This document shows positions 3,256 through 59,420 of a stretch of DNA of 64,000 nt, piece after piece. The translations under genes and the position numbers were made by a program. The stretch comes from Pegea sp. RAD2-039 (Eukaryota > Chordata > Thaliacea > Salpida > Salpidae), in NCBI GenBank assembly GCA_034620365.1, contig JAQGEQ010000351.1:310001-374000 (forward strand). The letters are read 5' to 3'. The notes beneath the pieces were generated by a model. That model was given only the letters and a program-made list of their open reading frames with translations. It did not search any database and had not been told where the DNA came from. The first letter of the stretch is position 1; each line of letters starts with the position of its first letter.

Positions 3256-4745
3256 TTTTATTTATTTATTTATTTAAATAAATGCAAAGGAGGGTACCTG
3301 AAGAGAGCACCTCTCATTAACACACATTCTCACAAATAACATCTATTTAGCCAAAAATATAGAGAATAAAAGATGTAACGAGAAAAAAAATCACAGTTTA
3401 GAAATAACAATGTTGGCAATGTTATAACGGTTCAACTTCTTCTTGGACAACGCGAGTGACTTCGACATGGCAATGTCTTATGGCAGCTGGTTCCATGTAT
3501 TAATTGTACGGTATGAGAAAAAATTTGCTCTGACTAATGTACCAGGTGATATAGGCTTATTAAGGCGCAATGGGTGTCGTCTGAGCTGATATAACTTGAG
3601 GGAAGGACTAATGGAAAAGAAATCATCAAACTGAATGTCAATTAAATTGTGGATAATTTTAAAAATAAGAATTAAGTCGTATTTAATCCGTCGGATTTCC
3701 AAAGTATCTAAATTGAAGAGACTGAGACGATGTTTATAACTATCATATTTGATATTAAGTTTCCTACTAATCTTGTAAATGTGGTCTGAACAGATTCGAT
3801 TTTTTTTGATATCACTAACTTGATATGGCATCCATGCACTGGCATTGTATTCAAGAATTGGACGTACGTACAATTTGAAAACATTGATAAAAAAGCATGG
3901 GTTCTTAGAATTAAAAGTCTTTCTAATAAGGAAGATAAGATTGATTAATTTTCCAAAGATTTTGGAAACATAATTGCGCCATTTAAAGTCAGGTTATAGA
4001 GCAATGTCAAGGTCTAGGACCAAAGATACTCGTTGAATAATAAATCTATTGATGGAGTATTGGTTCAAGCAATTTACAGCTGGTTTAGGAGAAAAAGTTA
4101 TAAGTACAAACTTTGTGGGCTGGATTCTGAGCTGCTAATTCGCAGACCAGTCTTCTACAGTGTGTAGTGCAGTTTGAAGTTTTAAAGGATTACAAGATAA
4201 TAGCTTGATATCATCTGCATACACAAACACTTTGACGTCATCTACTGCTACTAATCTTCTGATAAGGTCTTCGATGAAAATTAAAAGGAGAAGGGGACCC
4301 AGAACAGAACCCTGAGAAACACTACTAGTGATTTGACTAGAAGTAGAGAAAGATCTTTCAACACGAGTTTGTTGGGTTCTACCTGATAGGTAATCTTCAA
4401 TCCACTGTAAGATAAAGCTGTTGATTTTTAAGTTTTTCAATACAGTAATGAGCTTAGTGTGTGGGACAGAATCAAACGCTTTAGCAAAATCGAGATATAT
4501 GATGTCACAGGGAGTATTACTTTCGTATTGGGCTGTAAGCTCAATAAGAAAAGTGAGATGCTGAGTCAGGGAAGATACGTTTCACAAAGCCATGCTGGAC
4601 ATCAGATATTAGATGGTGCTCCATCAAATGGCTGGTCATATAATTGTGAATAATATGCTCTTGAGTTCTGCAGATAACAGAAGTCAGCGAAACTGGTCTG
4701 TAGTTAAGTGCGGTGTTCCTGGGACCCTTTTTATGAATTGGAATA
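3256..4745 (-). mobile_element. Non-LTR retrotransposon (LINE), 5'-truncated and decayed, copy A
   Basis: Minus-strand reading gives reverse-transcriptase pieces in order: NYRPVSLTSV and QHGF near 4560-4720, then WIEDYLSGRTQQTRV, QGSVLGPLLLL and the catalytic YADD box (4135-4440). The C-terminal block starts MYVRPILEYNASAW (3478-3873). Frames are broken by stops and frameshifts between blocks, and everything upstream of the RT is missing, so this is a dead, truncated copy. The 3' end is a simple AATA/TAAA tail (seen as repeated TTTA at about 3256-3275), typical of LINE insertions. The 3' 100 bases are shared with copies at 28081 and 61797. The clade (CR1/Jockey-like) is a guess. Confidence 0.88.
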
Positions 4746-5024: not shown

Positions 5025-7616
5025 CTAACTACATTTTCGTTTTATTTTTTCTAGTATACTGGTTAAAGAATGAAGGCTAGAATCAGATGATTCAAATGAT
5101 TCTTCTTCTTTTTCTTCTTCTTCTTCATCATCTGCTTCTTCATCTGCATCTTTACCTTCATGGTTACAGCTAGTAATAGTGGATTCAGACTTTTTACAGT
5201 TTGTGGCATTTTTCTTCTTTAAAAAATAGTTTTCTCTTTTTATCGCTTGAGTTCTTTTAATATTGCACATATTCTTTTCTTTATCTTTCAAGCTGTATTT
5301 ATCTACTTGCTTTTGCCGTTGATTCTTGTTGCAACAATTGTTCGAATATTCAGATTCATTTAGCTGCAACAACTTATTTTCGTTTTTTTTCTTACACCTT
5401 GCAGTTCTTTTTTCGTTGTGCTTCCGTTTTTTTCCTTCTCTATCTTCTTCTGCCAAATAGTTTCTCATGTGAGATCGTTGAAGACGGTGCTTTATCACTT
5501 GCAACAAGTCTGTGCAACTCTCTTCTTCAACACATTCTTCACTTTGCTGTTCGCAAGCAGATTCAACAAGATCCGGAATACATTTATTTGACCTTCCAAC
5601 TATACCAAAGAAATTTCGTTCATCAGTACAATAATCTTCAGATTTGTTCGAGCATGACTTTGGTAAACAAGATTTCGGTGGACATGGTTTTGGTGGACAG
5701 GGCTTAGGTGGACAAGATTCGCTTGAACAGGATTTTGTTGGACAGCATTGACTTGAACATGATTTAGGTGTACATGGTTTTGGTGGACAGGGCTTAGGTG
5801 GACAAGATTTACTTGGACAGGATTTTGGTGGACAAGATTTACTTGGACAGGATTTTGGTGGACGTGGTTCTGGTGGACAGGGCTTAGGTGGACAAGATTC
5901 ACTTGGACAGGATTTTGGTGGACAAGATTTACTTGGACAGGATTTTGGTGGACGTGGTTCTGGTGGACAGGGCTTAGGTGGATAAGATTTACTTGGACAG
6001 GATTTTGGTGGACATGGTTCTGGTGGACAGGGCTTAGGTGGACAAGATTTACTTGGACAGGATTTTGGTGGACAAGATTTACTTAGACATGATTTAGGTG
6101 TACATGGTTTTGGTGGACAGGGCTTAGGCGGACAAGATTCACTTGGACAGGATTTTGGTGGACAAGATTTACTTGGACAGGATTTTGGTGGACATGGTTC
6201 TGGTGGACAGGGCTTAGGTGGACAAGATTTACTTGGACAGGATTTTGGTGGACATGGTTCTGGTGGACAGGGCTTAGGTGGACAAGATTCACTCGGACAG
6301 GGTTTTGGTGGACAGCATTGACTTGAACATGATTTAGGTGGACATGGTTCTGGTGGACAGGGCTTAGGTGGACAAGATTCACTTGGACAGGGTTTTGGTG
6401 GACAGCATTGACTTGAACATGATTTAGGTGGACATGGTTCTGGTGGACAGGGCTTAGGTGGACAAGATTTACTTGGACAACATTCTCGTCTACAAGGATC
6501 AACCATAGTTTGAGTATCAGTATCAACAAACTTGGGACAAGTATTTTCTCGCATCTTCTCTATTTCTAACACCAACAATAGAAACTTAATTGGCAGTAAG
6601 CTGATTGCTTGCTTCAACCTTTTTGCTGAGATATCTTCAAGGTAATAATCGTTTTTTCTAGACACAGCTTTTTGTAAGGAATCCAACAAATCCTCTGAAG
6701 GCAGTTGCTTTAATCGCAGTAAGACTACAGTAGGATATACATCCAGAAAATACATCATTAGTTTATCAACATTGATGTCTTTCAATAACTCTAAAACAGT
6801 TTTCCTCGATTTTCTGCTCGGTTTTGATTGGATGTAAATTTTTGTTCCTTTTTTATTTGTAAGTTTAGTTTCAGATCCCCAAAGTTGATGGTGATCAGTT
6901 GGTTTCTTGTTTTCGTTTATATACTCAAACACCTCAGGATTTTTGGCTTTTGCAACTTTCAAGTTCCGTTTAAGCTTATAAGACTTTGAGTTTTGTAAAG
7001 CGTTGGAGATAACATGTAAAGGAGCCGCTTGAAGGTCGACATTATCACCATAATCTCTCACAGCTTTTGCTATACTATTATTTGGATGAGAGAAAAACAT
7101 GCCAGCTGCAATGAGATCACTATTTTGTATGATGACGTCTTTAAGTACCTTCGGTTCTACTTTAAAGAGCTGTTGTACCCACATTTCCAAGGGTAAGTTT
7201 GTAGGGACACAAGTATGTCGATCACAAAAATCTACATCTTCTTCTGATATAGAACTACAAGACGATACATCAGCATCAATGGTTAGCTTGGTAAAGAGTG
7301 GGTTGTCTTGGCAACAACAGCTCCCTAGTTCATCATTTATAAATTTTACAGCCCGATTCTTTAAATCCTTGAATATTCCTATTAGCCCGTCTGAGTAAGA
7401 ATTTTTTCTAGTTGCAATATCCAATCCAATAAAATAAAGAATCCAGCAAACTACTGCCAGCAGCTGAAAGTAACAAATGTTGGCATGCTTACACACTATG
7501 GTAGTGATGTCATCACTTACCCCTGTTGCTATTAGTAAAGTGTTGTTTGCTAAAATAAAGAGAAGAATTGTGAGGATAGTAAGAGCGAAGATTGCAGTAG
7601 TGTAACAAAGTAGTTC
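5025..7616 (-). CDS. Cys/Pro-pentapeptide repeat protein with N-terminal membrane segments (5' end unresolved)
   Basis: A single open exon encodes about 864 residues; I recognise no family. Order: two hydrophobic segments (roughly residues 5-35 and 53-70, counted from ELLCYTT), a mixed soluble region of about 300 residues (includes LPLEMWVQQLF and VLELLKDINVDKLMMYFLDVY), then about 280 residues of CPPKP/CPPEP/CPPKS/CPSKS pentads. A lysine-rich region and an acidic tail (DEEEEEKEEE) end in KIKRKCS. The open frame extends to 7649 but only with a TTG codon. There is a strong acceptor (TTTTTATTTCCAG) just before GAACTAC at 7616, so an upstream exon holding the real ATG is likely; I could not place it. 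Cys/Pro repeats recall sperm structural proteins (SMCP, Drosophila Mst CGP proteins) and epidermal SPRR proteins. That resemblance is compositional only. Confidence 0.7.
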   Translation of the reverse strand, partial: ELLCYTTAIFALTILTILLFILANNTLLIATGVSDDITTIVCKHANICYFQLLAVVCWILYFIGLDIATRKNSYSDGLIGIFKDLKNRAVKFINDELGSCCCQDNPLFTKLTIDADVSSCSSISEEDVDFCDRHTCVPTNLPLEMWVQQLFKVEPKVLKDVIIQNSDLIAAGMFFSHPNNSIAKAVRDYGDNVDLQAAPLHVISNALQNSKSYKLKRNLKVAKAKNPEVFEYINENKKPTDHHQLWGSETKLTNKKGTKIYIQSKPSRKSRKTVLELLKDINVDKLMMYFLDVYPTVVLLRLKQLPSEDLLDSLQKAVSRKNDYYLEDISAKRLKQAISLLPIKFLLLVLEIEKMRENTCPKFVDTDTQTMVDPCRRECCPSKSCPPKPCPPEPCPPKSCSSQCCPPKPCPSESCPPKPCPPEPCPPKSCSSQCCPPKPCPSESCPPKPCPPEPCPPKSCPSKSCPPKPCPPEPCPPKSCPSKSCPPKSCPSESCPPKPCPPKPCTPKSCLSKSCPPKSCPSKSCPPKPCPPEPCPPKSCPSKSYPPKPCPPEPRPPKSCPSKSCPPKSCPSESCPPKPCPPEPRPPKSCPSKSCPPKSCPSKSCPPKPCPPKPCTPKSCSSQCCPTKSCSSESCPPKPCPPKPCPPKSCLPKSCSNKSEDYCTDERNFFGIVGRSNKCIPDLVESACEQQSEECVEEESCTDLLQVIKHRLQRSHMRNYLAEEDREGKKRKHNEKRTARCKKKNENKLLQLNESEYSNNCCNKNQRQKQVDKYSLKDKEKNMCNIKRTQAIKRENYFLKKKNATNCKKSESTITSCNHEGKDADEEADDEEEEEKEEESFESSDSSLHSLTSILEKIKRKCS
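5655..6486 (-). repeat. 15-bp coding minisatellite with 60-bp higher-order unit
   Basis: About 55 copies of a 15-bp unit, each encoding a Cys-Pro pentapeptide, are tandem and in frame. Blocks of four units (60 bp) recur almost exactly, for example the stretches starting at 6001, 6181 and 6241. Near-identity of the 60-bp blocks points to recent unequal exchange or slippage while the reading frame stayed open. One unit near 5982 has Tyr in place of Cys (KSYPPKP), and two blocks have Arg (PEPRPPK). Confidence 0.93.
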
Positions 7617-8267
7617 CTGGAAATAAAAACAAAATCTTACTTGAAACAATTTAAATCTACTGATGCTTGAAACAATGTTAAGTTTTTATTGGGGGATCAA
7701 ATAAATCGTATTAAAGTATTGGATAGAAAATCAGCGTCCCTATTATGGATTTCACGTAAGGTAAAAATACTTTGATAAGAAAATAGCTGAGTTTAATCTT
7801 AAAGATACTTGCAAGAAGTTTTTTTTTTCGAAATACTCTTCGGTGGTTCAAATTGGAAGTTTTTGATCAAATTTTTTGATTTAGAAAAAGGCTTTTCTGA
7901 TTTGGTTCGGTTTTAATGAACCTTGGCTTATATATTTCCCTTAAAAACATTTTTGAAGTTTATAAGATTTAATAGTGCAGACATTTTCCTAAGCTGCTAA
8001 ACGCTAAAAATTGGTAAAAAGGCCTAAGATTCAATTGTAATGTAAAGTTATACTTTCATATTTCTAGTTTTCTTTCTGAGCCTAATTAACCTCAGTTTTA
8101 TGGAAGATATCAAGTTTTGTTTAATTACATTAAAAATAATCTTATTTTTTTGAAAGGATTATGAGAGGCAGATATTGGTTTGTTTAGTTGTGGAGTTGAA
8201 ACATTTGATAAACAATTACATCACCACCACCTTGTCTGCTTCTACTTACAATCAACAAACATAAGAT
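7617..8267. other. Intergenic / possible upstream exon region
   Basis: About 650 AT-rich bases. An upstream exon of the Cys/Pro repeat gene should lie here or further right on the minus strand, but I found no clear one. The 3' UTR of the MARVEL-like gene must also lie here. Confidence 0.3.
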
Positions 8268-8774: not shown

Positions 8775-8960
8775 CTCTTCTGATAAGGATTACATTAACA
8801 TAAATTATTTTAAACCCTTAATTACATGTCTGATTGATCCAAATCTTTGATTTAATGAGGTTACCACAATTAACTGATTATGACGTCATTAAAGAGATTT
8901 AATAAAATTCTCAGCTTTTTAAGAGACTTTGAAGATGAGCCTGTTGCTATGACGATCTGT

Positions 8961-9161: not shown

Positions 9162-11732
9162 TTACTTTTTCCCGCCAACACCAATTGCAGTCAACGCTGA
9201 TTGATTGATGACCGAGTATTTCTGCGGGTAACTACCTAATCGCTGTTTCGCGCTGCCACTGGAAGGTGCGTTCTTGTTTGAACCAGACACTAATTTACGA
9301 CCCATTTTTAACCCGTTCTGCTGATTGGAAAGCAACTGCGGAGATCTAGGCACCTGGTTAGATTGATGGCGGTTCAAAGAATCCTAAATAAGATTTTAAT
9401 CAGCAGCTGTACGACTGATGACGTCACTTACAAATCGCGAAACGTTGATAGTCGGATTGTCTTGACGCGTGAGTATCTTATGACTGTATCCGATGTTGTA
9501 TTGTTGAGTTAGAGAACGCGGTCTAAAGCCATTCTGAGAAGGGGCTGACTGCTGCCTTTGTTTGTAACCGTACTGCAAGCAACAACATTTGATTGGATTA
9601 AATCAGTTTGAAGCAGCCAATCAGGATCGGGTATTTACCCCACAAATACTATGATGGCGACGAAGAAGAGATAAAGCTCTCTCGTTTAACGAGTCACTTG
9701 ATTGGTACTAAAAACAGCTAGCTTTTAGAGATGTAAACGGATAAAAGGGTATTTTGGCGAGGATTTCAAGTGGTGGATGTCTTACTTTTGATAAATTTTG
9801 ATCTTGTTGGTCAGTAGCAGCAGTTTGAGCTCTTATCATTTCTTCTCTTTTGTTCGAATTTGAATATTTGACAGTTCTGCCGAACGCCACACCATTTGAT
9901 ATCTGCTAAATTATACAGGCTTCAATGCTTGACAGTTATTCCACGTTTCACTGACTTCACTCACCTGTTGGTCGTTTTGTCTTCTCCTTTGACTTGATTT
10001 TTGATTTCTATCACTACCCGTGATTTGGTGATAATTTTGGGGTTGTGATTGCATTGCTTGCTGGTAATTAGATCGTGTGTCTTGTTGCTGTCTTCTGATT
10101 GGTGCATTTTGAGTTGACATCAGCCTCATCTGTACATACAAATCAAATGATAAAAATCAAACGAGATGAAGATGAGAAAAACCTTTCTAAACTCATAAGA
10201 AGCTTCATCTTCATCATCGTCGTCAGCTGATATAATCTGCTGATCTCTAGAAGCTTCTCTCCGCTGTCTCCTCGCTAAAGACTTCTTACCTCTGATCATC
10301 TGTGGATCTCAGACTTTTATTAACCACTAGAGGGCGTTTGTGTTCACCTCATAAAGTTGGTTGCGATATTCAGCGACAGTCAGCTGGATATCGTCGTCAA
10401 GGGGAGGTAAAACGTCATAATTCAACATCTTCTCGCTTCTGCTGCTGTGGAATCTATCAGAGATCAACATCATCACGTGATCACTGAGCCGTGAACAACT
10501 GACTTAGATACATAAGGATGTGAAAGACAGTCTCTTGCTGATAAGCGCTTCTCGGGATTGAAGACGAGTAAACGCTCGATTAGATCAAGTGCGTCATCAG
10601 GAGCGTTTGGGATGAGATCTCGAAGTGATCTTCGCGCTCTGTGACGAGTAAATAAGATCTAAACTGAGATGAACATCAGGATCACCTCGCACTAGCTCTT
10701 TCTAGAATAGAGTGTCCGTAATCGGAATGGATGGAGTCGATGTCAGCGCGCGAAGGACGCGAGATTACATTCATAATCTTCTCGATTTGATTCAGAGTAG
10801 AAGATCCAGGGAAAAGAGGTCTTCCGAGGAGCAGCTCACCCAGGATGCATCCAATTGACCACATATCAACTCCTTTGGTATATCTGTTCATCACAGATGA
10901 AATACTGACACCTAGTGACCACTTTCTTACCTTGGAGATGCGAGAAGGATCTCAGGAGCGCGATACCATCGAGTTGCTACATACTCAGTGAGGGCAGGGT
11001 TGCTTCCTTCAACTTCAGGTTGTTTTAATTTAGTCAGAGATCTTGCTAGGCCAAAGTCACAGACTTTTACGAAGCAGTCACTATCCAATAGAATATTAGA
11101 TGGCTGAAATAAGGTCAGTTGAAGATCAGAGTCATTTTGATCATTTTCAGACCTTTAAATCGCGATGAATAACATTCCCTGAATGTAAATAGTTACATGC
11201 TTTCAATACTTGGTACATTATGTATCTTTTGTGGATGTCTTTGAGGATGTTTCCTTTTTTGATAACAGCATGAAGATCAGTGTCTGAAAGATTTCAAAGA
11301 TCTTTAAGATTTCTTGAAAATATTTCAGAAAAGTTACCCATAAACTCAAAAACAAGATAAATATCACGATCATTATCAGCTTTCAGGACATTTTTTAATT
11401 TGATTACATTATCATGATCACTAAATTCCTAAAAATGAAGATTTTAGTAAAATTTCAGATTCAAGCTAATCATTTTTCACGTTACTTGAAGAAACATAAT
11501 TTCACGAAAAGTTCTTTGTGCATCTGTGCAATTTCGAAAAGCATCAAAAATCTTCTTTAAAGCGACAACAGAACCAGTTTGTCTATCCAAAGCTTTCCAA
11601 ACTATTCCATAAGCCTGAAAACAAACCAACTAAAATACAACTTGGAAACAACAGATCAATTCTTACTCCTTTTCCAAGCCTTCTTTTGATTTCATATTTC
11701 TTAGTGATATGAGGATCAATGTCATTACTCAT
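9162..11732 (-). CDS. MAPK15: Atypical MAP kinase ERK7/ERK8
   Basis: Ser/Thr kinase of the MAPK15 family; in animals it acts at the ciliary base, in autophagy and in secretion control. Many exons joined by 45-65-nt introns give [17 protein letters not shown], glycine loop [42 protein letters not shown], catalytic HRDLKPSN, DFGLARS, the TEY activation motif and [28 protein letters not shown] and the MAPK-insert region follow. The [13 protein letters not shown] stretch separates this family from ERK1/2. After the kinase domain comes a long low-complexity tail rich in Gln, Asn, Ser and Arg, ending in IGVGGKK and TAA. Internal exons include 10682-10894 (VDMW...). Tail exon borders are less certain than those of the kinase; in particular the junction near 9700-9790 has alternatives. 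The ATG at 11732 fits the family start. Confidence 0.93.
10324..10338 (+). promoter_or_regulatory. CTCF-like motif in a MAPK15 intron
   Basis: CCACTAGAGGGCGTT matches the core of the animal CTCF consensus closely. It sits inside a 48-nt intron between two MAPK15 exons. Matching is by eye. Confidence 0.35.
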
Positions 11733-13809: not shown

Positions 13810-16800
13810 ATGTCTTCTTGTGACCATGATCTTAATTTAGGAAGGTTTGAAGAAAAACAACAATTACAGCAACTAAATGGAAGAGTTGCTGCTTATATAC
13901 AAGCCATCAGATCAAACAAAGATAAAGTGATAAGAAAACATTCATATATCAAATAAAGCTGACTTGATATGTTTACAGGCTGCCGGTGAAAATCTTTTTA
14001 CTGTTACCAATGAAAGTTTGTCACAGAAACTTCAAACTCAAAAAGATTTTTACGAAAAAGAAATTTTCGATTTACAAAATCAACTCGAATCTTTAAAGAT
14101 TGAAAAAACTCAGCTTGGATTTTTTCAGATTAAATATGACACATTAAACAATGAGTTTGAGAAAAGGTTCTTCATCTTTTAATAATATGTAAAAACATAA
14201 ATAAAATAAATTCTACAGGATTTCAGATTTGAATAGAAAAATGAAAGATCAAAAAGAAGAGTATATGAAGTTACAAGTGGAAGTTTCAAGCAAGGATATG
14301 GAAATTGAAAAGTTGAAATCACAAATTATTGTTCCTCAATCACAGCTTGAAACATATAAATTAGAATCTGAAGATTTAATAAAAAAATTGGAACAATTTG
14401 AAGAAAGGTAACAAAGTTCAAATGAAGACATCACCAATAACTTCTATTTATAGATGCAGTCTTCTTGAAAAAGAAAAACAGATGATGGAAGAACATTTTA
14501 TTGGATATGAGACTCGATATTCATTTGATATTCAAATGTACCAACAGGTGACATCTAAACATCAACAGATTTAATTATTGAAACGAGGTTTTTAGGAAAT
14601 TGCTAACTTGCAAGACAACTTAGATAAATCTCGGCAACTAGTGCTGGATTTAGAAAGTTCCTTGTATGATGGTAAACAAAATGAAAATATGAATGAACTT
14701 ATCAAACAAGCTCGTGAAAAAAGTGATATGCAGATTCGAAGGTTTATAGATGAGAGTGAATCGAAGCATCAGTTAGATGTGAGTAAACTTCATGTGAATC
14801 ACAATGAAAATTCCACTGAAATATTTTTCAGATTTCCCAAATACAACTTCAAGTACAAGCAGACCACCAAAAGTTGGTGTCTTTAGAAGATGAAAATAAG
14901 AATTTAGAAGCTTGCATTAATGTGCTTAAAAACGAATTGAACCAATCAAGTAAAGATGTAAGTGAATCTAGAAGTGATGAAGAACTAATGACATAATCTT
15001 TCAGTTGATTGAGGTTCAATCAGACCGTGATATGTTGAGTTGTCAATTAGAAATAGAGAAAAAGAATTCACAACTTCAAATCAAACAAATTGAAGATAAA
15101 TTACAAGTTAGTTGACACATGACTTGCATAACACGTGATCATGACAATGATTTGAAGGACACACAAGATCTGTTGATGGTGAAGTTGCAAGAATTGAACA
15201 ACTCTCAGCAAATCTATCTTCCTCTCCGTGAAGAGATTGAATCTCTGAAAAATTTGATTCAATCTGAAGAAAGCAGGTGAGAAAGAGTCCTTAAATTGAT
15301 CTCCTTTTCATCTAAGACTTTTAAAGACTTGGATTAAGCGATGATCATTTGCATCGAAGTCTAAAGATATCTGACCACCAGATGTCGCTCTCTTCTACAA
15401 ACTCACTGAAACATAACGAGTCGATGACGTCACCTAGCAACTTACAACTTAATCATTCTACTCATTTTGTTCCTTTGGTAACTAATGAATTTACAAGGGC
15501 CCCACCTAGAAGCAATCCCGCCAACATCTTCACTTCGACGGTTGCTCACTTAATGACATCTTGTCACGCAACACTAATCACGTGTTGTTTTGCAGATGAA
15601 GACAGAAGCGAGCAATGAAGACGAAAGGTTGCTACGCAACCTTCCACAACGCTCCTCACCGCGTTTAAATCGAGTTCCTTCTGCCCCGATGCTGTTGCGC
15701 CCCAACTCCGAAGTGTCCCAAAAGATGCGGCCCATGAGCGCTGTGCGCTACAATCCGCCCGATGCAGGTGCTGATGACGTCACCTATGACGTGTTAAAGC
15801 AGCCATTTGTCTCAGGTGAAGGTCGCGACTACTATGACGTCATATTTAGCGGGAAACGCAGAGTAAAGTCATCTACACAACGTGACGTCATCAACACCAC
15901 TTGCAGGTGTCAGCCCGTTTTGCAAATATTTGAGTGGCGCGTCCCTTTTGACGTCATCGTTGGTGTTTGATTGAAATTGAGAGAAATATTGCGTAGCAAC
16001 CAACTTGTGTTTGTAGTGCGACTGGAAACTTACAAATTGAAGCAGTTGATGACGAATGTGTGAAAGTTCATAACTCATCAGCAAGCCGAGTTGAGATAAT
16101 CGGTAATTGTCTGATACAACAAAATGTCGCCGGAAACCCCGTCGCTGTGTTTCGATTCCCGCCCCGGACCAAGTTGCCCCCTAGTGGTACTTGTACGGTC
16201 AGTCATTAATTGTTCCTGGTGGTCAATAAATGAAAACTTTTGAAGGTCTGGACCGCCAAGTCTAAGTCAGGTGTCCATGACCCCCCGGAACACTTTCTAT
16301 GGAAGCAATTAGACAAATGGGGCACTGGACCACAATGTACAACTATATTATGTAAGCCCAACGGACAAGCAGTGGCGTGGACCACTTCACCACCTGTAAG
16401 TGGTCCAGAAATGCGGCCCATTTGTAAATTAGTTTGTTATGTAGAGAATCAGTCAAAGATCTCGATCTAATGACGTCACTCGATTACAAATAGAAGCTGG
16501 AGCAATCAACGATGCAAAAAGCGTTGATGACGTCAGTTGTGTTGCTCAGCACCCTGCTTGTCAACCTTACGCCCCGAAACCAACTTTGTACTTTAACGCT
16601 CCGCCCAAACCACCTTCGATTCCTTCAATCAAAGTGTGAGTTGCGGCATCAGTTCCGCTTCACTGATTTCATCGTGTTTATGACGTAGGAACGCTCCGAT
16701 GGAAGACAAGAAATCAAAAAGTAAAGCGATCGGGATAAAGAAGCAACAACAGCGAGGCTTGAAGCTTCGAATGCCAGGCAGCTTTCATTCACCAGCCGAT

Positions 16801-16914
16801 CAACATCGACAAGCGATGCTATGGTTACAAACTAACCACAATTCGCGCTTCAACCCGCCAATGCCTGAGCCACATCGCCAAATTCATTCAAGCGTATCGT
16901 CAAGACTAAAGTAA
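13810..16914 (+). CDS. Lamin-type intermediate filament protein with lamin-tail domain
   Basis: Exons 13810-13926, 13979-14166, 14219 onward and several more encode an intermediate-filament rod followed by a lamin-tail (LTD) domain. The start [19 protein letters not shown] leads into coil 1A ([16 protein letters not shown], the LNDRLA equivalent). Long heptad-rich segments follow. The rod end near 15100-15280 ([18 protein letters not shown]) corresponds to the IF helix-termination region. The LTD (about 16025-16400) reads [54 protein letters not shown] and [20 protein letters not shown]. The tail is basic ([16 protein letters not shown]) and ends VSSRLK with no CaaX box. It could be a divergent lamin, a cytoplasmic IF with LTD, or an LMNTD1-type protein. 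One exon end is ambiguous: donors at 15478 and 15541 both keep frame. Confidence 0.88.
15375..15390 (+). promoter_or_regulatory. CTCF-like motif within a coding exon
   Basis: CCACCAGATGTCGCTC resembles the CTCF core and shares AGATGTCGCT with the site at 16946. It lies in a coding exon of the lamin-tail gene, so chance is possible. Confidence 0.25.
16174..16187 (-). promoter_or_regulatory. CTCF-like motif in the LTD exon
   Basis: The minus strand reads CCACTAGGGGGCAA, a strong match to the CTCF core. It overlaps the codons for LPPSGT of the lamin-tail domain, so codon constraint may explain part of it. Confidence 0.3.
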
Positions 16915-16945
16915 TCCCGAATCATCTTCGTCTGTACATAACTCA

Positions 16946-16960
16946 CCACTAGATGTCGCT
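16946..16960 (+). promoter_or_regulatory. CTCF-like motif between convergent genes
   Basis: CCACTAGATGTCGCT lies 32 bases after the stop of the lamin-tail gene and before the 3' end of the opposing ASPHD gene, a plausible boundary position. Confidence 0.35.
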
Positions 16961-17029
16961 ACATTGCGGCGTAGAAATCGACCAAGCAGCGAGCAGCTGT
17001 GATATCACGTGTGACGTCATCACCACTTT

Positions 17030-17069
17030 TTTATTTATCAAGTAGTTTTGTAGAAATGACGTCATAATA
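17030..17069. terminator. Overlapping poly(A) signals of convergent genes
   Basis: TTTATT at 17030-17035 (AATAAA on minus, for ASPHD) and AATAAA at about 17064-17069 (plus, for the lamin-tail gene) lie within 40 bases of each other. The two 3' UTRs therefore probably overlap. Confidence 0.4.
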
Positions 17070-17133
17070 AAAATCAATATCAGTTTTATTAATGGTTTTG
17101 TTGCGAAGCGCAAATCAGAGTAAAATGACGTCA

Positions 17134-18053
17134 TCAAGAGGGATAGAGGGCCTGCACTGCTTGACGTTCCGTTTGAGACAGGTCATGATGCCACAAATCG
17201 ACTAATAGCACGACTCGCGGCGTTGTGACGTCATCACCTTTGCAAGACGGGAAGTGAACAGAATGAAGAAGTGCATCGTTGAAGAGAAGACAGCGACCAG
17301 TGGACCAGTAACGATGGACACCATCGATGGTCATATAAGCGCGTGATTTATGAGGAACTTCTAACCCTGAAAGTTAATTAAATAAAAACTAAAAGAAGAT
17401 CGCGCGGAAATGTACCTAGATGACAACGAACTCGCGCGTTTGTTGCTCCATAATGAGCTGAGATGTTGGTGTCGGGAGGTAGAAGAGAAAAACAGACGTT
17501 TCCGAAACTACAATCTTTTAATCGATCCTTTAATTTTTCAACAACTTCAACTGTTGCTGGGCAACGTGACGCGTTTGCTTCGATCTGAACGACAAGACAT
17601 TGTGATGATGTCACTAGCTGTTGATGACGTCACCTTGTTTCCTTGGTTGTAGATGTAAAAGAGCGCCCATTGGTGGTGACCGGAAGTGTTAGTGACGTTA
17701 AACTTCCAGCCATCAGCGTCAATGACGTCACTACACTCTTTCCAAATCACGTCGCAGTTTGATTCGAGCATTCTGACGTCATTCTCGTACAAGTGCGGGT
17801 CGACGCAAGCTTCGGTAGTAAGGGCGGGTAAGTCCATCAACAAGGGACTATTAGGATCAGGGGTCCACACCCCAATGCGACCCGGAAGCGGTGCTTCGGG
17901 CGTCACGTGATGACGTCGCGTGCATCTCACGCAGTTGGTACTTGTACATGTGGTGACGTCATCACGTCGCAAAGAGATTAGATAGTTGAGGGCGAGACAG
18001 AAACAGATTGCCAGAAGAATAGTGATGACGTCACTAATGACGTCATCAAACAT
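17134..18053 (-). CDS. ASPHD: Aspartyl/asparaginyl beta-hydroxylase-domain membrane protein (ASPHD type)
   Basis: Predicted single-pass membrane protein with a C-terminal Fe(II)/2-oxoglutarate hydroxylase-like domain, probably lumenal. From the ATG at 18053 a signal anchor (VITILLAICFCLALNYLISL) precedes TRRHHVTPEAPLPGRIGVWTP. Next come DPHLYENDVRMLE and GWKFNVTNTSG, then WALFYIYNQGNK at the first intron. Exon 2 has FGNVCFSLLPPDTNISAHYG and ATNARVRCHLG. Exon 3 has LEVPHKSRAYMTIDGVHRYW, GRCLLFNDALLHSVHF and PRVVLLVDLWHHDLS, then stop at 17134. HYG and the LLHSVH histidines fit the metal-binding positions of the family; whether catalysis is retained is unknown. Introns are about 50 nt, and the first begins GTGACGTCATC, a copy of the overrepresented octamer. 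Orthology to ASPHD1 versus ASPHD2 is unresolved. Confidence 0.88.
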
Positions 18054-18194
18054 TTAAAGAAATTAAAAATCTGAAATTAGAACAAAAGTTATTTAAAATC
18101 GATTGCAGTTGAAAATCAAGATCAGAATCATGAAGATCAGAATAAAGATCAAACTCAGAAACAAGCGGATCAGGATGAAGATCAAAAGATAAAA

Positions 18195-21100
18195 TCAGGA
18201 AAGAGAGACGCGCGAAGACACAAAATCTTCTTTCTTTTCCTGCAAACTATCTTCTCGTGAATTACCAAACTGTTGAAACATCAAATCTAACTCGAGGCGT
18301 CGTTGTCCTGACAACGAAGGCTTCGTCACTGACATCGCGTGCCTCAAATTACTTTTACTGATTCGAATCTTGCACGCATTTTCACTTGTACGCTTTGTGA
18401 CGTCACCACTTCCAATGATGACGTCAATCTCGTCAGCAATTCGCGCGTCATCAATTTCTCCAGAACCTGACACCACCGAGGGAAAGTAATTTGCGTCACA
18501 TCGTCGTGATGACGTCACCTCTGATGCTATCAGCGCCGCCGCTGTGTCAGTGACATCATCAACAAAGTGTGACGTCATCACTTTCTCGTTGTCGTCATGG
18601 ATGACGAAAGATTCAGCTTCAATGTAGATGTCTTCGACTGATAACTCATCGGTGGCGATTGGCGTAGTGACGTCATCAACGCGCGAGTGGATTGCGTCCA
18701 GTTGTGCGTTGTAAAGAAATGCTTTGATGTCGGCACCCGTGAACTCATCGAGATCACGCGCTAGTGACATCATATCGACGTCATCATCGAGAAGAAGGTG
18801 TGATGAAAGAGTTGCGAGGATTTGACGACGATCGATGACGTCAGGACGTGGGATAAAGAAGTGATGATCAAAGCGACCAGGGCGCAACAAGGCAGGGTCC
18901 AAAAGATCGGGACGATTAGTTGCCGCGACCACCGTGACCCCTTTAAGTGGTTCCACACCATCAAGTTGTGTGAGAAGCTGGTTGACGACGCGATCAGTGA
19001 CTCCAGTGGAATCACGACCACGACGCGGTGCTAGAGAGTCAAACTCATCAAAGAAGAGGACACAAGGAGCAGCAGCAGACGCGCGCGTGAATAAATCGCG
19101 GACTGCCGCTTCACTGGCCCCAATATATCGGCTTAAAAGTTCCGGACCTTTGACGGAGATGAAGTGAAGTTGACAGAGGTTGGCAACCGCCGTTGCTAGG
19201 AGAGTCTTTCCACATCCTGCTGGTCCGTATAGCAACACACCAGCGTTGCTATGGAAACCGATATCGCGAAACAGCTGTCGATAACGTACTGGCCACAAGA
19301 GTTGCTCGACTAGGCGCTGTTTGACTTCCTGTAAACCTCCTACGTCATCCCAGGACACACGCGGCGGTTCGTGGAGTTTGACGTCATGAAGTGATGACGG
19401 CGTGAAGTCGATGAGAGAGGTTTGTAGGTGCGTGACGTCAACAACGCGATCACGTGATGCGTGTCGCGCGCGACGCAACAAGCGCTGAAAGTCGATGGGC
19501 GCAAAACCTTCAGTGGCATCGACAAGCTGTTGGATGTGGGACAGTGAGGTGGTTGAGGGCAGTAGTGACGTGATGATGACGTCACGCTGACGCGCGTCTG
19601 GTAGTTGTAAGTTGACGAAATGATGGAAGAGGTGGTTGGTGGTGAGGGACTGGTGAAGTGTTTCGCGACTTTTTGCGGTTGCTATGACTACGACACGTGA
19701 GCCTTCAGCGTTATCAACGCGACGGAAGAAGTCAATAACGACGCGTGCTAATTGTGAGTCATACAAATCGTCGTTAGCACCTTCGTGACGCGATTGGCTT
19801 GTTGCTAGAAGATGCAGGTCGTCAAGAAGCACAATTGATGGTTGTCGCCATAGCAACTCATCAGCAAGTTGCTCGAAACGTCGCGCGATGCTATCACTTT
19901 TCTTGCCACGCCATTCACTACACGTTACCATAGCAACATACGCGGTTACTAAAGGGTCGAGGCGGAAGTTACGAAGCACGTGACTACAAATAGAAGTCTT
20001 CCCGCTGCCACGTGACCCTGTTACTAACAACGTTCGTCTATGGCAACGAGGAGAAAGGCGCAAGATGACGTCAGAGATGGGTCGTGCCCCTAAACCCTGT
20101 TCAACAAATCGCGTTATTTCATCTACGTCATCATCGAACGCGATGCAGGGCGCAGGAGGTGGCGTAAAAGGATCTACGTCGTCAGGTGGCCACGTGGTGA
20201 CGCTGTCGAGCTGGAAGTCGACACGAAGTGCGCGAAGACTACCAATTGATAGTAGGTGAGCTACAGATGATGATATCATCCCTCCATCGCGTCGCTCTAA
20301 CTTAGTGACGCAACACTCGACTGGCGTGACGTCATCGACGTGAAAACCAAATAGCGTTCCTATAGCAATGGGCAACGGACGAGTGACGTCACTATAGGTG
20401 GTAAGCCAGCGTTGAAAAGCGAGATGAAGCGATTGAGAAGCGATTCCGCGATCAAACAAGCCGCTAGAGGTCGGTGTTGTGCGAACTTGTAAGGTTATAG
20501 AGAAGAGATCGCTGCAATCGCGTAGCGAGGAGTTTGTGACTCGATGAAGGCGCACCCTAGAAGTGACTCCAATGTTGAGTTGCCGTCTAAGTAATCGCGT
20601 CAACTTCAATCGGTGTGTAGATAACAAGTTGGGACAGTTTAAGGACAGATTTAGGTGGTTTAGTGGATGAATATAGACCTGGACCACAGCTGTGGTTGTG
20701 GACCGGTCTTGGTCAGTTGGAGAAGGCAGTTTGGTCAATTTAATGATTCTGATGTCGCATTGATCCGAAGGTTCCAGATGTGAGAGATGCAGGAAGACAG
20801 CTCCTGGTTGATCATGAAGAAGTTCTCCATCACCGATAAAGATTGTGTCTGGGGCCTGATCCGATTCAATCACTTGTTCAACTCTCATCACTAGATCAAA
20901 GTCTTCTGGAAGTTCAGTTAAAATGTCAACTGCTGGTTGCTGATGAATTGGCTGGTTGCTACTGGCAACTACTGGTTCGGTTTTGAAGTTGATCAGAGAA
21001 GTAAAGAAGATGAGTAAGCGACGGATCGCTAATCGCGGAATATAGATAAAGATGAAGTTGAAGACACGCGCAAACTTGCTGCTTCGTACCCAACCCAAAA

Positions 21101-21893
21101 ATTGATAAATTATTGATAAATGTTTGATGGTTGGCGAAGAGACGGTTGTAGCATCTTCAACACCAGTTGAAGCATCTTTAATACCAGCCGAATTATCAGT
21201 TGAACCATCCCCGCCAGCAGTTGAACCATCTTCACCAGCAGTTGAACCATCTCCACCGGCAGTTGAACCATCCCCACCAGCAGTTGAACCACCTCCACCA
21301 GCAGTTGAACCACCAAACAAACCACTTTTTTTTTTACCAGATGTAAGAAACCGATTTGATTGATTAATTTTTGGCGCCACAATTAGTTCTGTAAGAGGCA
21401 TCAGGACGGCAAAATCACAAGTGTTTGGTTGTACATCAACTGTACGTAAAAATATACAAACAGCTCCGTTGTCCACCCACAATGGGAATACCTGACCTGG
21501 CCACACAACTCTCACTTGATCAAGTAGATTACTTTCAACTTGAGCTGCATGTAATTCAAGAATTTCCCAATCATCAACTGATACTGGTTCGATATTAGCT
21601 CTCATACAAGCATTTGTTTCACGAACACAATCAACAAATACCAATTGGTTGTCCCTCAATAACAAGTTGTTGGCCAACAGCAGATTTAGATGTACTTCAT
21701 CAACAACACCTTTAGTAGCTACTGCACTCAAATAAGCAACTTGTCCATCATATATCACTTTGACGATGGTTAAGAGGTCGTTAGTTGAGTCTTCTTCATC
21801 TATATCAACACCTATAGACTTCAGAAGTGACACAGAAGCTTTTACAAAACAGTTTTTGCTGTGATTTGTAATAATTTTCGCAACTTGTCTCAT
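18195..21893 (-). CDS. PEX1: Peroxisome biogenesis AAA ATPase PEX1
   Basis: PEX1 with PEX6 forms the hexameric AAA motor that extracts the PEX5 import receptor from the peroxisomal membrane. One open reading frame of 1,232 residues starts at ATG 21893. The N-terminal domain has VSVDDWEILELHA and the VFPLWVDNGAVCIF strand typical of PEX1. A low-complexity Gly-Asp-Gly-Ser-Thr-Ala repeat lies at about residues 193-230. ATPase D1 has Walker A GSRGSGKT (about residue 625) and Walker B IVLLDDLH. D2 has Walker A GPAGCGKT (about 890), ISVKGPELLSRYIGASE, Walker B VLFFDEFD, GVTDRVVNQLLTQLDG and RPGRFDHHF. Length is close to the usual 1,280. The coding sequence has no intron, unlike most neighbours. A GTAAG/CAG pair just upstream (about 21893-21946) suggests an intron in the 5' UTR. 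Confidence 0.95.
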   Translation of the reverse strand: MRQVAKIITNHSKNCFVKASVSLLKSIGVDIDEEDSTNDLLTIVKVIYDGQVAYLSAVATKGVVDEVHLNLLLANNLLLRDNQLVFVDCVRETNACMRANIEPVSVDDWEILELHAAQVESNLLDQVRVVWPGQVFPLWVDNGAVCIFLRTVDVQPNTCDFAVLMPLTELIVAPKINQSNRFLTSGKKKSGLFGGSTAGGGGSTAGGDGSTAGGDGSTAGEDGSTAGGDGSTDNSAGIKDASTGVEDATTVSSPTIKHLSIIYQFLGWVRSSKFARVFNFIFIYIPRLAIRRLLIFFTSLINFKTEPVVASSNQPIHQQPAVDILTELPEDFDLVMRVEQVIESDQAPDTIFIGDGELLHDQPGAVFLHLSHLEPSDQCDIRIIKLTKLPSPTDQDRSTTTAVVQVYIHPLNHLNLSLNCPNLLSTHRLKLTRLLRRQLNIGVTSRVRLHRVTNSSLRDCSDLFSITLQVRTTPTSSGLFDRGIASQSLHLAFQRWLTTYSDVTRPLPIAIGTLFGFHVDDVTPVECCVTKLERRDGGMISSSVAHLLSIGSLRALRVDFQLDSVTTWPPDDVDPFTPPPAPCIAFDDDVDEITRFVEQGLGARPISDVILRLSPRCHRRTLLVTGSRGSGKTSICSHVLRNFRLDPLVTAYVAMVTCSEWRGKKSDSIARRFEQLADELLWRQPSIVLLDDLHLLATSQSRHEGANDDLYDSQLARVVIDFFRRVDNAEGSRVVVIATAKSRETLHQSLTTNHLFHHFVNLQLPDARQRDVIITSLLPSTTSLSHIQQLVDATEGFAPIDFQRLLRRARHASRDRVVDVTHLQTSLIDFTPSSLHDVKLHEPPRVSWDDVGGLQEVKQRLVEQLLWPVRYRQLFRDIGFHSNAGVLLYGPAGCGKTLLATAVANLCQLHFISVKGPELLSRYIGASEAAVRDLFTRASAAAPCVLFFDEFDSLAPRRGRDSTGVTDRVVNQLLTQLDGVEPLKGVTVVAATNRPDLLDPALLRPGRFDHHFFIPRPDVIDRRQILATLSSHLLLDDDVDMMSLARDLDEFTGADIKAFLYNAQLDAIHSRVDDVTTPIATDELSVEDIYIEAESFVIHDDNEKVMTSHFVDDVTDTAAALIASEVTSSRRCDANYFPSVVSGSGEIDDARIADEIDVIIGSGDVTKRTSENACKIRISKSNLRHAMSVTKPSLSGQRRLELDLMFQQFGNSREDSLQEKKEDFVSSRVSLS
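21195..21312 (-). repeat. 21-bp in-frame repeat in PEX1
   Basis: Five to six tandem copies of a 21-bp unit encode the heptapeptide GGDGSTA in a linker between the N-terminal domain and the rest of PEX1. It is coding, in frame and slightly diverged. Confidence 0.85.
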
Positions 21894-22147
21894 CTGAAGA
21901 AGAATGAAGAGATAAGAGATTGAAAGGTGATGAAAGATAAACTTACCTTTTATTACGAGCTAACAAATTCATAACAAATACAAAATTCCCTACAAAAAAC
22001 CTATCATCTGTCGATAAAATACTTGTGATGATTAAATTACACAAAACCAAGTGGCAAGGTAAAATAAATAACACGATGTTGAAGCTATTCATAGAAGACA
22101 TATAAAAGAGAAGAAGGCGGACCAAAGAACTGAGGAAATAATCACCA

Positions 22148-22325: not shown

Positions 22326-23975
22326 TCAGTCGGATTTTTTATTAAAACTAATTTCATTCCATCTATATTCATCCGCGCACAGCTGTTCAAAGTGCAACAC
22401 CCAACCGTGGGTTTCAGCAGCAACTAAAAACTCTTCAACATCACCACCTGTCACAGAATTTAGTGAAAAGTTTGTACAAATGATGAATGATTAAACAAAC
22501 CATCTCCAGAATAATCCAGGTACAGTTTCAAGCTTTCAAAAGCTGCAGAAATCACATCGCGAGCTTTCGCTTCTTTGTTCAGCGCTACATTAATACATCC
22601 TGAAGAGAAAAAGATTACAAGATGTAATTGGCTGAAAGATGTCACGTGATTACTGTGATCCTTGTCAAAATCCAAGATAAATTTGCTTTGAGCTGAAGCA
22701 TCCGGAAAAGATGAAAATCTGTTTAGAGAGCACCCCAAATCCATCCAATCAGTAAGATCTAGAAAGATAAAGTTACATGAAAAGAGTCGGACGCAGATCA
22801 ACCACCTGATGATGGGAAGATGCTTTCAAGTTGATTGGCTTGTGTTGGGTCGAGCAATTGACCTGGACACAGATTAAACTTTTCAGGGTAAAGGTAACTC
22901 CTAGCAACGATAGCTAACCGCCTTCGGTTGAATGAGTCAATCACTAAACATTTGACCGCTTTGTAATTACTGTAAATATGCAAAGCAGTGAAGACAACAA
23001 ACAGAAGCCAAGTGACCAGGAAGTTTTCAGAACATATGCTTGTAGTGATGAAACCAACCGCTATTCCACCTAAAGTCACTAAAGTCTCCTAAAATGATCG
23101 GGATGATAAAATGACTCGCCGCCGGCATGATACGACTCACCTGAGACCCATCTTTTGCGCACACATCCGCCATATTGTTCTTTTTGGCCTGATGAAGAGT
23201 CAAAGCAGCTCTAGTGCTGCCTCCGGCAATTCCAACTAATGAGAAGAGAACTCCTGTGAGACACATGATCAACTGGAAGAAGGAACGAGGAACAAATTGC
23301 GCCAGTAGCTGTAGAAGAATCGCGCAATCGTTTGTGACGTCAGCAAACAAACGCCATTGCTTAGCGTTTGAATCAAGTGAAGATCTTTAATAAGAAGATG
23401 AGAGTGACATGATGAATAGATCACGTGATCCTTACCCCTGAAAATAAGCAAAAAGAATCCGAGATATCAATCCACAACCATCTACAAGAATTCATTTAAA
23501 AAAAGGGTTTGTCTGGTTTGCTTTTGACCACCTCTTAGAAACCAGATGGTTGTAGCAACCAGTACCGACGCTGTTTCATCTCCAACACCTGAACCTTTTA
23601 GAACAGCATACGTTGCTAGGGATTGAGTGATGCTGCTACAAAATGCCTGAATGGTGTCCCAGACCTACAGACATTAGTGATTGAAGACTTCATGTTGATT
23701 GGTGAATTGATAGAGACCTGATATTCAAAATAATCTTGACTGACGCTCTCAGGGTAACCTTGGGGAAGGAAAACAGCCTGAGAAGAAGATGACGTCATTA
23801 AGATTTTGGCGGACACTTTTACACTTACCATCATCCAGAATTTAATCTTCAAATAAAATGAAGCTCTCATCTTGTCATTTGTTGCTTCTTCTTTCATCAG
23901 AATTCCCTTTCTTGTTTCATAGATATCACTTCTCTCAGAGATAGAAGATGACCCATAACACTCAAATAACTTCAT
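22326..23975 (-). CDS. RUSF1: RUS1/DUF647 family membrane protein
   Basis: Animal homologue of plant ROOT UVB SENSITIVE proteins (human C16orf58/RUSF1); a membrane protein of poorly known function. Exons from ATG 23975: MKLFECYGSSS ... FWMM, AVFLPQGYPESVSQDYFEYQ, then VWDTIQAFCSSITQSLATYA and GVGDETASVLVATTIWFLR. CGLISRILFAYFQG, RLFADVTNDCAILLQLLA, GGSTRAALTLHQAKKNNMAD and AKDGSQETLVTLGGIAVGF follow. A C-terminal half after ALHIYSNYKAVKCLVIDSFN ends FEQLCADEYRWNEISFNKKSD. Family landmarks are the VGDE and GG.TRAALT.HQA.RNNMADV blocks. Introns are short. The sequence AATAAA occurs inside the last codons (Asn-Lys), so a poly(A) signal may overlap the stop. Confidence 0.92.
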
Positions 23976-59286: not shown

Positions 59287-59420
59287 CGTCAGTGATGACG
59301 TCATAGTCTTGTTTGCAGCTTAGTCATGACATATTCCCAATCAATATGGAAACTAATTTTGTATAAAGTTGCTTACCTCAAATTTAGCTCTTTAAAATTA
59401 ATTTTAAGCACCATCTTCCA

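Follow-up and report, generated by a model that had tools for sequence, protein, structure and literature searches.

The octamer TGACGTCA, the canonical cyclic-AMP response element (CRE), to which CREB/ATF/JUN-class bZIP dimers bind as a full palindrome, recurs in a 64,000-nucleotide stretch of the genome of the salp Pegea sp. RAD2-039 (contig JAQGEQ010000351.1, positions 310,001 to 374,000 of the forward strand; hereafter the window). In mammals, according to PMC1796609, these elements are concentrated in the 1-150 bp upstream of transcription starts; for sea squirt, fly and worm that paper reports no position bias. The salp sites share with canonical CREs the identical octamer, its central CpG, RTGACGTCAY flanks and a raised frequency of TGACATCA/TGATGTCA, but they stand about 50-fold over expectation and form islands that run through exons and introns. 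In cyanobacteria, HIP1 is likewise a single palindromic octamer hugely over-represented genome-wide, including in coding DNA. However, HIP1 is bacterial, has the word GCGATCGC and is modelled as saturating near one copy per kilobase rather than forming islands; it has been linked to orphan methyltransferases of matching specificity (PMC4390886). The M26 site of fission yeast (ATGACGT, bound by Atf1-Pcr1) has the same core and the same class of protein, and it arose by point mutation in coding sequence. Unlike the salp octamer, it is known from single loci rather than in tens of thousands of copies, and the full CRE in ade6 is reported inactive (PMC9775316). Vertebrate CpG islands resemble the salp islands as discrete segments in which GC content and the CpG observed/expected ratio (o/e) are raised over a CpG-poor background, whereas here GC is 0.35-0.47, promoter location is putative and the segments are marked by one word. 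Finally, exonic enhancers, or duons, are regulatory-type sites that overlap codons and are known as scattered sites; here up to 12 exact copies lie within 735 codons of one gene.

The window contains 51 perfect copies of TGACGTCA, compared with 0.56 expected (100 dinucleotide shuffles, the largest of which held 3). A first-pass annotation of this DNA had estimated about 30 octamers in 5 kb, and 29 were counted in positions 15425-20391. Each of the 14 further positions that it gave lies within 7 bases of a real copy, and eight copies outside 15425-20391 had escaped it (those starting at 4233, 40000, 44982, 45777, 46399, 51057, 58649 and 59284). Its impression that AT-rich spacers hold almost none was borne out, with 1 site in the 25 one-kilobase bins of GC below 0.30 and 50 in the other 39.

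The excess extends beyond the window. A scan of the source genome (105.7 Mb, 387 contigs) found 27,792 copies of TGACGTCA and 969 of the same word written backwards, ACTGCAGT, a control without CpG, so that the true expectation for TGACGTCA is probably lower. In 18 loci picked by place (L009-L026; 178.5 kb), neither for the motif nor by a random generator, 41 copies were present compared with 0.83 expected under an order-2 Markov model, and TGACGTCA was the most over-represented palindromic octamer of these place-sampled loci. CpG-centred palindromes of like composition were rare in the window and sample together (AGTCGACT 4, GTACGTAC 3 and ACTCGAGT 2, versus 92 for TGACGTCA). Thus the genome does not hold the near-expected rate that the first-pass annotation had named as fatal to its claim. 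When paired copies of the motif were sought elsewhere, viral contigs gave 93 stretches and prokaryote genomes at least 118, most of those shown having one pair. Among the 211 loci counted, the densest ones inspected by position (L182, L057) were spaced like tandem repeats, and L250 held 12 copies in 8 kb. The element itself is known; a comparable excess, in scale or in island form, was not found reported among the matches listed of a limited full-text literature search covering few subscription papers. We give about even chances to the interpretation that the islands consist of CREB/ATF-class sites and serve as open domains resembling CpG islands.

The main island in the window occupies positions 15425-20391, with 29 perfect copies in 4967 bp, and spans a plus-strand open frame, an aspartyl/asparaginyl beta-hydroxylase (ASPHD-like) gene and the 3' part of PEX1. 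Its GC content is 0.47 and its CpG o/e 1.22, compared with 0.34 and 0.69 in the 3-kb flanks. PEX1 (18198-21959, minus strand) is a single open frame of 1254 codons from stop to stop, identified by Pfam PEX-1N and AAA matches and by PDB PEX1 matches. The beta-hydroxylase gene (17378-18053, minus strand) comprises two open frames, with PF05118 in 17378-17629; its upstream frame (17550-18053) was joined to it by eye, had no Pfam match and drew only chance matches in a PDB search (best E 0.22). Because the beta-hydroxylase frame starts (18053) close to the middle of the island, a promoter-centred reading of this island may apply.

The copies in the island were located as exact matches on the plus strand, and their residues were read from the translations. 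They lie at 15425-15432, 15775-15782 (DDVT in the plus-strand frame 15578-15967), 15835-15842, 15883-15890, 15949-15956, 16471-16478, 16528-16535, 17012-17019, 17057-17064, 17126-17133 and 17226-17233, followed by 17625-17632 at the 5' end of a short beta-hydroxylase intron, as judged by a splice reading by eye. The minus-strand frame 17550-18053 has copies at 17723-17730 (SDVI), 17774-17781 (NDVR), 17954-17961 (DDVT), 18026-18033 (SDVI) and, 12 bp from the last, 18038-18045 (DDVI). Within PEX1 they occur at 18398-18405 (GDVT), 18419-18426 (IDVI), 18510-18517 (VTSS), 18570-18577 (MTSH), 18668-18675 (DDVT), 18836-18843 (PDVI), 19379-19386 (HDVK), 19433-19440 (VDVT), 19577-19584 (RDVI), 20066-20073 (SDVI), 20327-20334 (DDVT) and 20384-20391 (SDVT).

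Codon usage, which the first-pass annotation had allowed as a possible full cause, was ruled out by synonymous shuffles for PEX1 and for a BTB exon on another contig. The island part of PEX1 (735 codons) has 12 copies, compared with a synonymous-shuffle mean of 1.3 and a maximum of 6 in 5000 shuffles; codon-order shuffles, which also exclude codon usage for this gene, gave a mean of 0.14. The BTB exon has 9 copies against a mean of 1.3, a number reached in 0 of 3000 synonymous shuffles. The case is weaker for three exons with 2 sites each (RhoGAP, MIOS-like and FH2), where the count was reached in 12, 8 and 25 of 3000 shuffles. By reading frame, ten of the PEX1 copies give Asp-Val and two give Thr-Ser, and the third frame would give a stop; the Asp-Val pair is itself raised, at 15 versus 6.4. 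No sites were present in the 497 codons of PEX1 outside the island, in TBCC or in a DNMT frame translated as far as the terminal stop. The edge of the main island falls inside PEX1, with all 12 copies in its 3' part.

The coding copies had also been suspected of being insertions, an idea that the PEX1 alignments do not bear out. In comparison with the solved PEX1 chains 8c0v and 8u0v, presumably from yeast, RDVI aligns with RAKL, VDVT with VTRE and HDVK with RGVK, and a fourth copy, PDVI, aligns with PDED of CDC48, in each case with the motif free of gaps. Two short deletions in the salp PEX1 directly precede VDVT, and the CDC48 alignments have a one-residue gap beside HDVK; neither involves a motif insertion. 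These four of the 12 copies are the ones that could be judged, the DDVT at 18668 lying at the alignment edge and the other seven outside the alignments. Since the four are gap-free in the motif relative to solved relatives, at least these copies arose by substitution in place.

A second copy of the main island was not found in the genome: among the 105 matches listed for a 4964-bp query were itself and short matches, nearly all of the latter to query positions 2683-2782 (window about 18.1-18.2 kb), where a 15-bp tandem repeat lies; a single 71-bp match fell at 3612-3682. On this basis a repeat or mobile element was rejected as the source of the motif. The view that chance or composition alone yields the word, through codon usage, GC content or a tandem or transposed repeat, draws on the correlation of sites with GC and CpG. 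It is refuted as sole cause by the Markov expectation, the PEX1 and BTB shuffles, the single-copy island, the unrelated flanks of the copies (described below) and the rarity of like-composition CpG-centred palindromes, and we assign it a negligible probability.

Islands were defined as runs of at least five sites, and eight were present in the loci examined, four of them from loci fetched for density. They span 365-4967 bp and have a GC content of 0.35-0.47, with none above 0.5. All eight exceed their 3-kb flanks in both GC and CpG o/e, two of them only slightly in the latter (1.01 vs 0.88 and 1.11 vs 1.07). The islands run across coding exons, introns and spacers, and lie in or beside genes matching RhoGAP, BTB and FH2, as well as a WD40 gene whose MIOS match is weak and falls below its cut-off. 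Relative to base composition, the excess grows with GC content: bins below 0.25 have 8-fold (1 site) and those above 0.40 have 196-fold, the latter figure inflated by the inclusion of the window and of chosen dense loci.

These properties bear on the main rival, a biased repair or gene-conversion ratchet that would spread the palindrome without selection on expression. Under this model a repair protein that binds DNA or is guided by methylation prefers whichever strand or allele carries TGACGTCA, so that near-sites become sites and perfect ones are kept, as a eukaryotic counterpart of cyanobacterial HIP1 or of bacterial DNA uptake sequences. The indifference of the copies to gene structure, their appearance in coding DNA as in-place substitutions, the climb of the excess with GC (its top figure raised by the choice of loci) and the sharp boundary within PEX1 would all suit such a process, which we nevertheless think unlikely. 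TCACGTGA, the next palindrome in excess (6 vs 0.78 expected in the place-sampled loci) and likewise of a type recognised by dimeric factors, is raised genome-wide (4614 vs 237 for its reversed word), and a word resembling the RFX X-box gave 18 strand matches at 11 places in the window versus 1.4 expected, with two mismatches allowed. These raised words point to protein sites rather than to a ratchet. The sites are also strongly clustered: on contig C1, 29% of the first 99 gaps are below 500 bp, compared with 3% for random placement. This uneven spread argues against a ratchet of the HIP1 kind, which is modelled in PMC4390886 as saturating at about one copy per 1000 nucleotides, an even spread of HIP1 being what we infer from that model. 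X-box-like GTTRCYATGGYAAC occurs at window positions 19245, 19844, 19924, 46114, 49698 and 51218 and at others, some of them within PEX1 coding sequence.

The sequence around the sites is consistent with a CRE-type binding site. Among 113 distinct sites aligned on the motif, the strand-wise -1 position is A in 0.58 and G in 0.29 of cases, giving the flank preference RTGACGTCAY, which is a bZIP preference. Relative entropy falls from 0.46 bits at -1 to 0.32 at -2 and 0.12 at -3 and is at most 0.14 beyond, so that the sequence common to the copies extends no more than about three bases to either side of the motif. The first-pass annotation had stated that many copies extend to a longer palindrome, which was an overstatement: the full 12-mer GATGACGTCATC is present at only 2 of the 51 window sites, and the usual extension is one-sided, with GATGACGTCA at 34 of 102 strand-wise flanks. 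It had also offered a mobile short sequence as a cause. This was not supported, as the 5-kb island is single-copy, the flanks are unrelated beyond about three bases and the alignable PEX1 copies show no insertion of the motif.

Near-misses were compared with perfect sites. In the place-sampled loci, 41 perfect copies were accompanied by 50 one-base variants, of which 31.7 were expected. The variant excess was mainly in TGACATCA (17 vs 6.9) and TGACGTAA (9 vs 2.7); AGACGTCA was also up (4 vs 1.2), and seven of the twelve variants either fell below expectation or differed from it by no more than about 1.5. In the window, 51 perfect copies stood beside 28 variants (17.4 expected), including TGACATCA (11 vs 3.9), CGACGTCA (3 vs 0.3) and TGACGTAA (only 3 vs 1.3). 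The ratio in dense bins, 158 perfect to 42 one-off sites (15.3 expected), is biased upward because loci L033-L036 were chosen and L002 was returned for holding sites; the place-sampled loci supply the unbiased figure. Collectively, perfect sites exceed the near-miss surplus, and the near-misses point mostly to CpG.

TGACATCA is the product of CpG deamination of TGACGTCA, and the decay pair TGACATCA/TGATGTCA is raised. According to PMC1796609, CREB binds this octamer, CpG methylation can inhibit the binding and the same CpG decay is described for mammalian CREs. The salp genome encodes C5-methyltransferases (11 PF00145 matches, seven of them in open frames of 832-873 aa), whose specificity for the site is putative and which would also serve a ratchet. 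Because the CpG-deamination variant is in excess and C5-methyltransferases are encoded, methylation in this genome is possible. The methylation- or repair-linked cause proposed in the first-pass annotation was accordingly kept alongside the preferred one, given the CpG-rich islands, the several cytosine methyltransferases and the standing of TGACATCA as the commonest excess near-miss. The seven methylase frames lie at C57:819728-826344, C249:1740707-1742050, C32:10146-38173 and C52:9209-10639 (L252-L254). The pair on C57 is separated by about 4 kb and lies on opposite strands, and C32 carries three in a 28-kb stretch. One frame that was scanned has BAH and methylase domains, and the set looks like multiplied DNMT1-type genes, perhaps borne by mobile elements.

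The spacing of neighbouring copies was then considered. Genome-wide, 5280 pairs lie 8-38 bp apart, at 96 pairs per bp for spacings of 8-18 bp, 416 for 19-21 bp, 233 for 22-26 bp and, by subtraction, 150 for 27-38 bp; uniform scatter would give about 7 per bp. No pair closer than 11 bp occurred among the first 50 listed of the 8-18 bp class. A histogram of 109 pairs on C1 up to 5.77 Mb has peaks at 15-16 and 19-21 bp, none below 11 bp and a drop at 22 bp; seven array pairs were left out of it by eye, and a few tandem-like runs were kept, including four 15-bp pairs. A computed count placed 14 of 56 pairs at 20-21 bp. Reading frame could favour multiples of three, yet the highest single spacing, 20 bp, is no such multiple. 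A Fourier check of the 8-26 bp histogram placed most power near 5 bp and not 10, and we therefore claim preferred spacings rather than a clean helical phase. A ratchet does not by itself predict such spacings.

Minisatellites with units of 17-46 bp and the motif in most units add to the 22-26 bp class. They were found by searching for motif pairs, and include C3:391168-391684 (L037), C3:249202-249702 (L038), L039, L040 and L035; examples are a 24-bp unit in 21.5 copies and a 22-bp unit in 22.8 copies. Arrays with the motif in nearly each unit could reflect a ratchet. They could also be left by break repair if the islands were meiotic hotspots of the M26 type, at which a bZIP dimer on ATGACGT opens chromatin and recruits the break machinery, with GC content raised by biased conversion. 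The heptamer is common here (A at the strand-wise -1 position in 58%; ATGACGTC 61 times by strand in the window), the islands are GC-rich relative to their flanks, and some minisatellites carry the motif. However, only 1 of 75 tandem arrays in the window and place-sampled loci holds it, the motif arrays having come from pair searches, and hotspot alleles are normally lost by conversion, so that hotspot activity alone predicts depletion. M26 is bound by the bZIP pair Atf1-Pcr1, but the full CRE in ade6 is reported to be neither bound by that pair nor able to promote recombination (PMC9775316). We consider a hotspot origin very unlikely.

The interpretation as CREB/ATF-class islands forming open domains would involve the following steps. 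The octamer has multiplied, at least partly by in-place substitution, and now forms islands of about 0.4-5 kb whose placement disregards gene structure. A bZIP dimer would occupy the sites, either in germ-line cells or in the majority of cells. Dimers on adjacent sites may co-operate or be spaced by steric limits, and dense occupancy would keep the island open and probably unmethylated, as in vertebrate CpG islands. Selection for occupancy would then keep the full palindrome even in coding DNA, at the cost of Asp-Val or Thr-Ser. For the step from site to protein we rely on what is established about how CREB/ATF proteins bind; that occupancy then opens chromatin is our inference. The putative bound protein would most simply be a CREB/ATF/JUN-class bZIP, given the flanks, the raised variants, the dimer-type palindrome, the scarcity of very close pairs and the preferred spacings, and the salp genome does contain bZIP genes. 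Of the causes listed in the first-pass annotation, a bZIP-bound chromosome-wide element is thus the best supported, with the binding putative, by the canonical CRE and its CRE-like flanks, the preferred pair spacings and the raised factor-type palindromes nearby.

Several observations weigh against this interpretation. The 35 close pairs in the fetched loci have no 19-21 bp peak (4 pairs, compared with 5 at 30 bp alone), so that the evidence for preferred spacings comes from the genome counts and from the lists for C1; in 34 of the 35, spacer identity is at most 0.6, so most are not duplicates, and only four of these are at 19-21 bp. Minisatellites with the motif in their unit account for some of the close pairs, and a few short tandem-like runs were left in the C1 histogram (for example at 2014300, 2032274 and 5274240). 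TpG o/e is no higher outside dense DNA than inside it (1.10 vs 1.11), and the methylation side is therefore weak. The bZIP genes, with at least 12 exon-level matches over the cut-off, have no visible expansion. To our knowledge, a 50-fold excess that includes exons is far beyond what is usual for a transcription factor site. In PMC1796609 the human genome is stated, from data not shown there, to have 25% of the expected canonical CREs.

The islands could instead be bound by another protein, such as a zinc finger or an architectural protein, and mark chromatin loops or boundaries. Island architecture suits a chromatin-level mark, but the flank and near-miss preferences found here are those of bZIP sites. 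Precedents in PMC12221973 are the CpG-containing, GC-rich loop-anchor motif of ctenophores, to which the zinc-finger proteins CTEP1 and CTEP2 bind, and a placozoan loop-anchor motif linked to the terminal inverted repeats of Mutator elements; neither TGACG nor bZIP appears in its main text. We judge this alternative improbable, a little less so than a hotspot origin.

A bolder reading is that the iterated palindrome maintains itself in this genome. A repair, conversion or chromatin process linked to binding would both keep and add full CREs, by the tens of thousands and at the expense of codons, and the resulting bZIP-marked islands would function as CpG islands do, or as domains of replication or recombination. 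We advance this tentatively, as possible but doubtful. A known regulatory octamer at about 50 times expectation, coding DNA included, would be an extreme example of protein sequence being moulded by what a DNA-binding protein prefers. The excess also offers a natural system for studying how a single word keeps islands open or unmethylated, and for separating selection on binding from biased repair.

A weaker second island, delimited from runs of sites, has 6 copies at 44982-46406, in the 5' part of a Piezo-like gene whose introns were read by eye. The name of this gene depends on one Pfam match, Piezo_THU9_anchor at 54224-54556, at 28.1 bits with a cut-off of 28. By this reading by eye, 8 of the 11 copies in the gene are intronic and one is exonic. 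Those in the gene, all on the plus strand, are at 44982-44989 and 46399-46406 (exact matches); in introns at 45585-45592, 45610-45617 (25 bp on in the same intron), 45777-45784, 45986-45993, 49598-49605 and 53264-53271 (the last two each adjoining a TCACGTGA), 51057-51064 and 53483-53490 (in an intron that also holds a TGACGTAA); and in an exon at 53401-53408 (CDVI).

The remaining window copies are exact matches on the plus strand. One at 4233-4240 lies inside a reverse-transcriptase fragment (Pfam RVT_1, minus-strand frame 4138-4581), and another at 23335-23342 encodes ADVT in an open frame with a Pfam UVB_sens_prot match. The others are at 8881-8888, 9419-9426, 23790-23797, 37094-37101, 40000-40007, 58540-58547, 58649-58656, 59284-59291 and, 12 bp from the last, 59296-59303. 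The window also contains two long minisatellites. One, at 51900-52561, has a 14-bp unit in 45.6 copies and lies, as read by eye, between exons of the Piezo-like gene; the other, at 5671-6479, has 45/90-bp units and lies within the minus-strand open frame 5028-7685.

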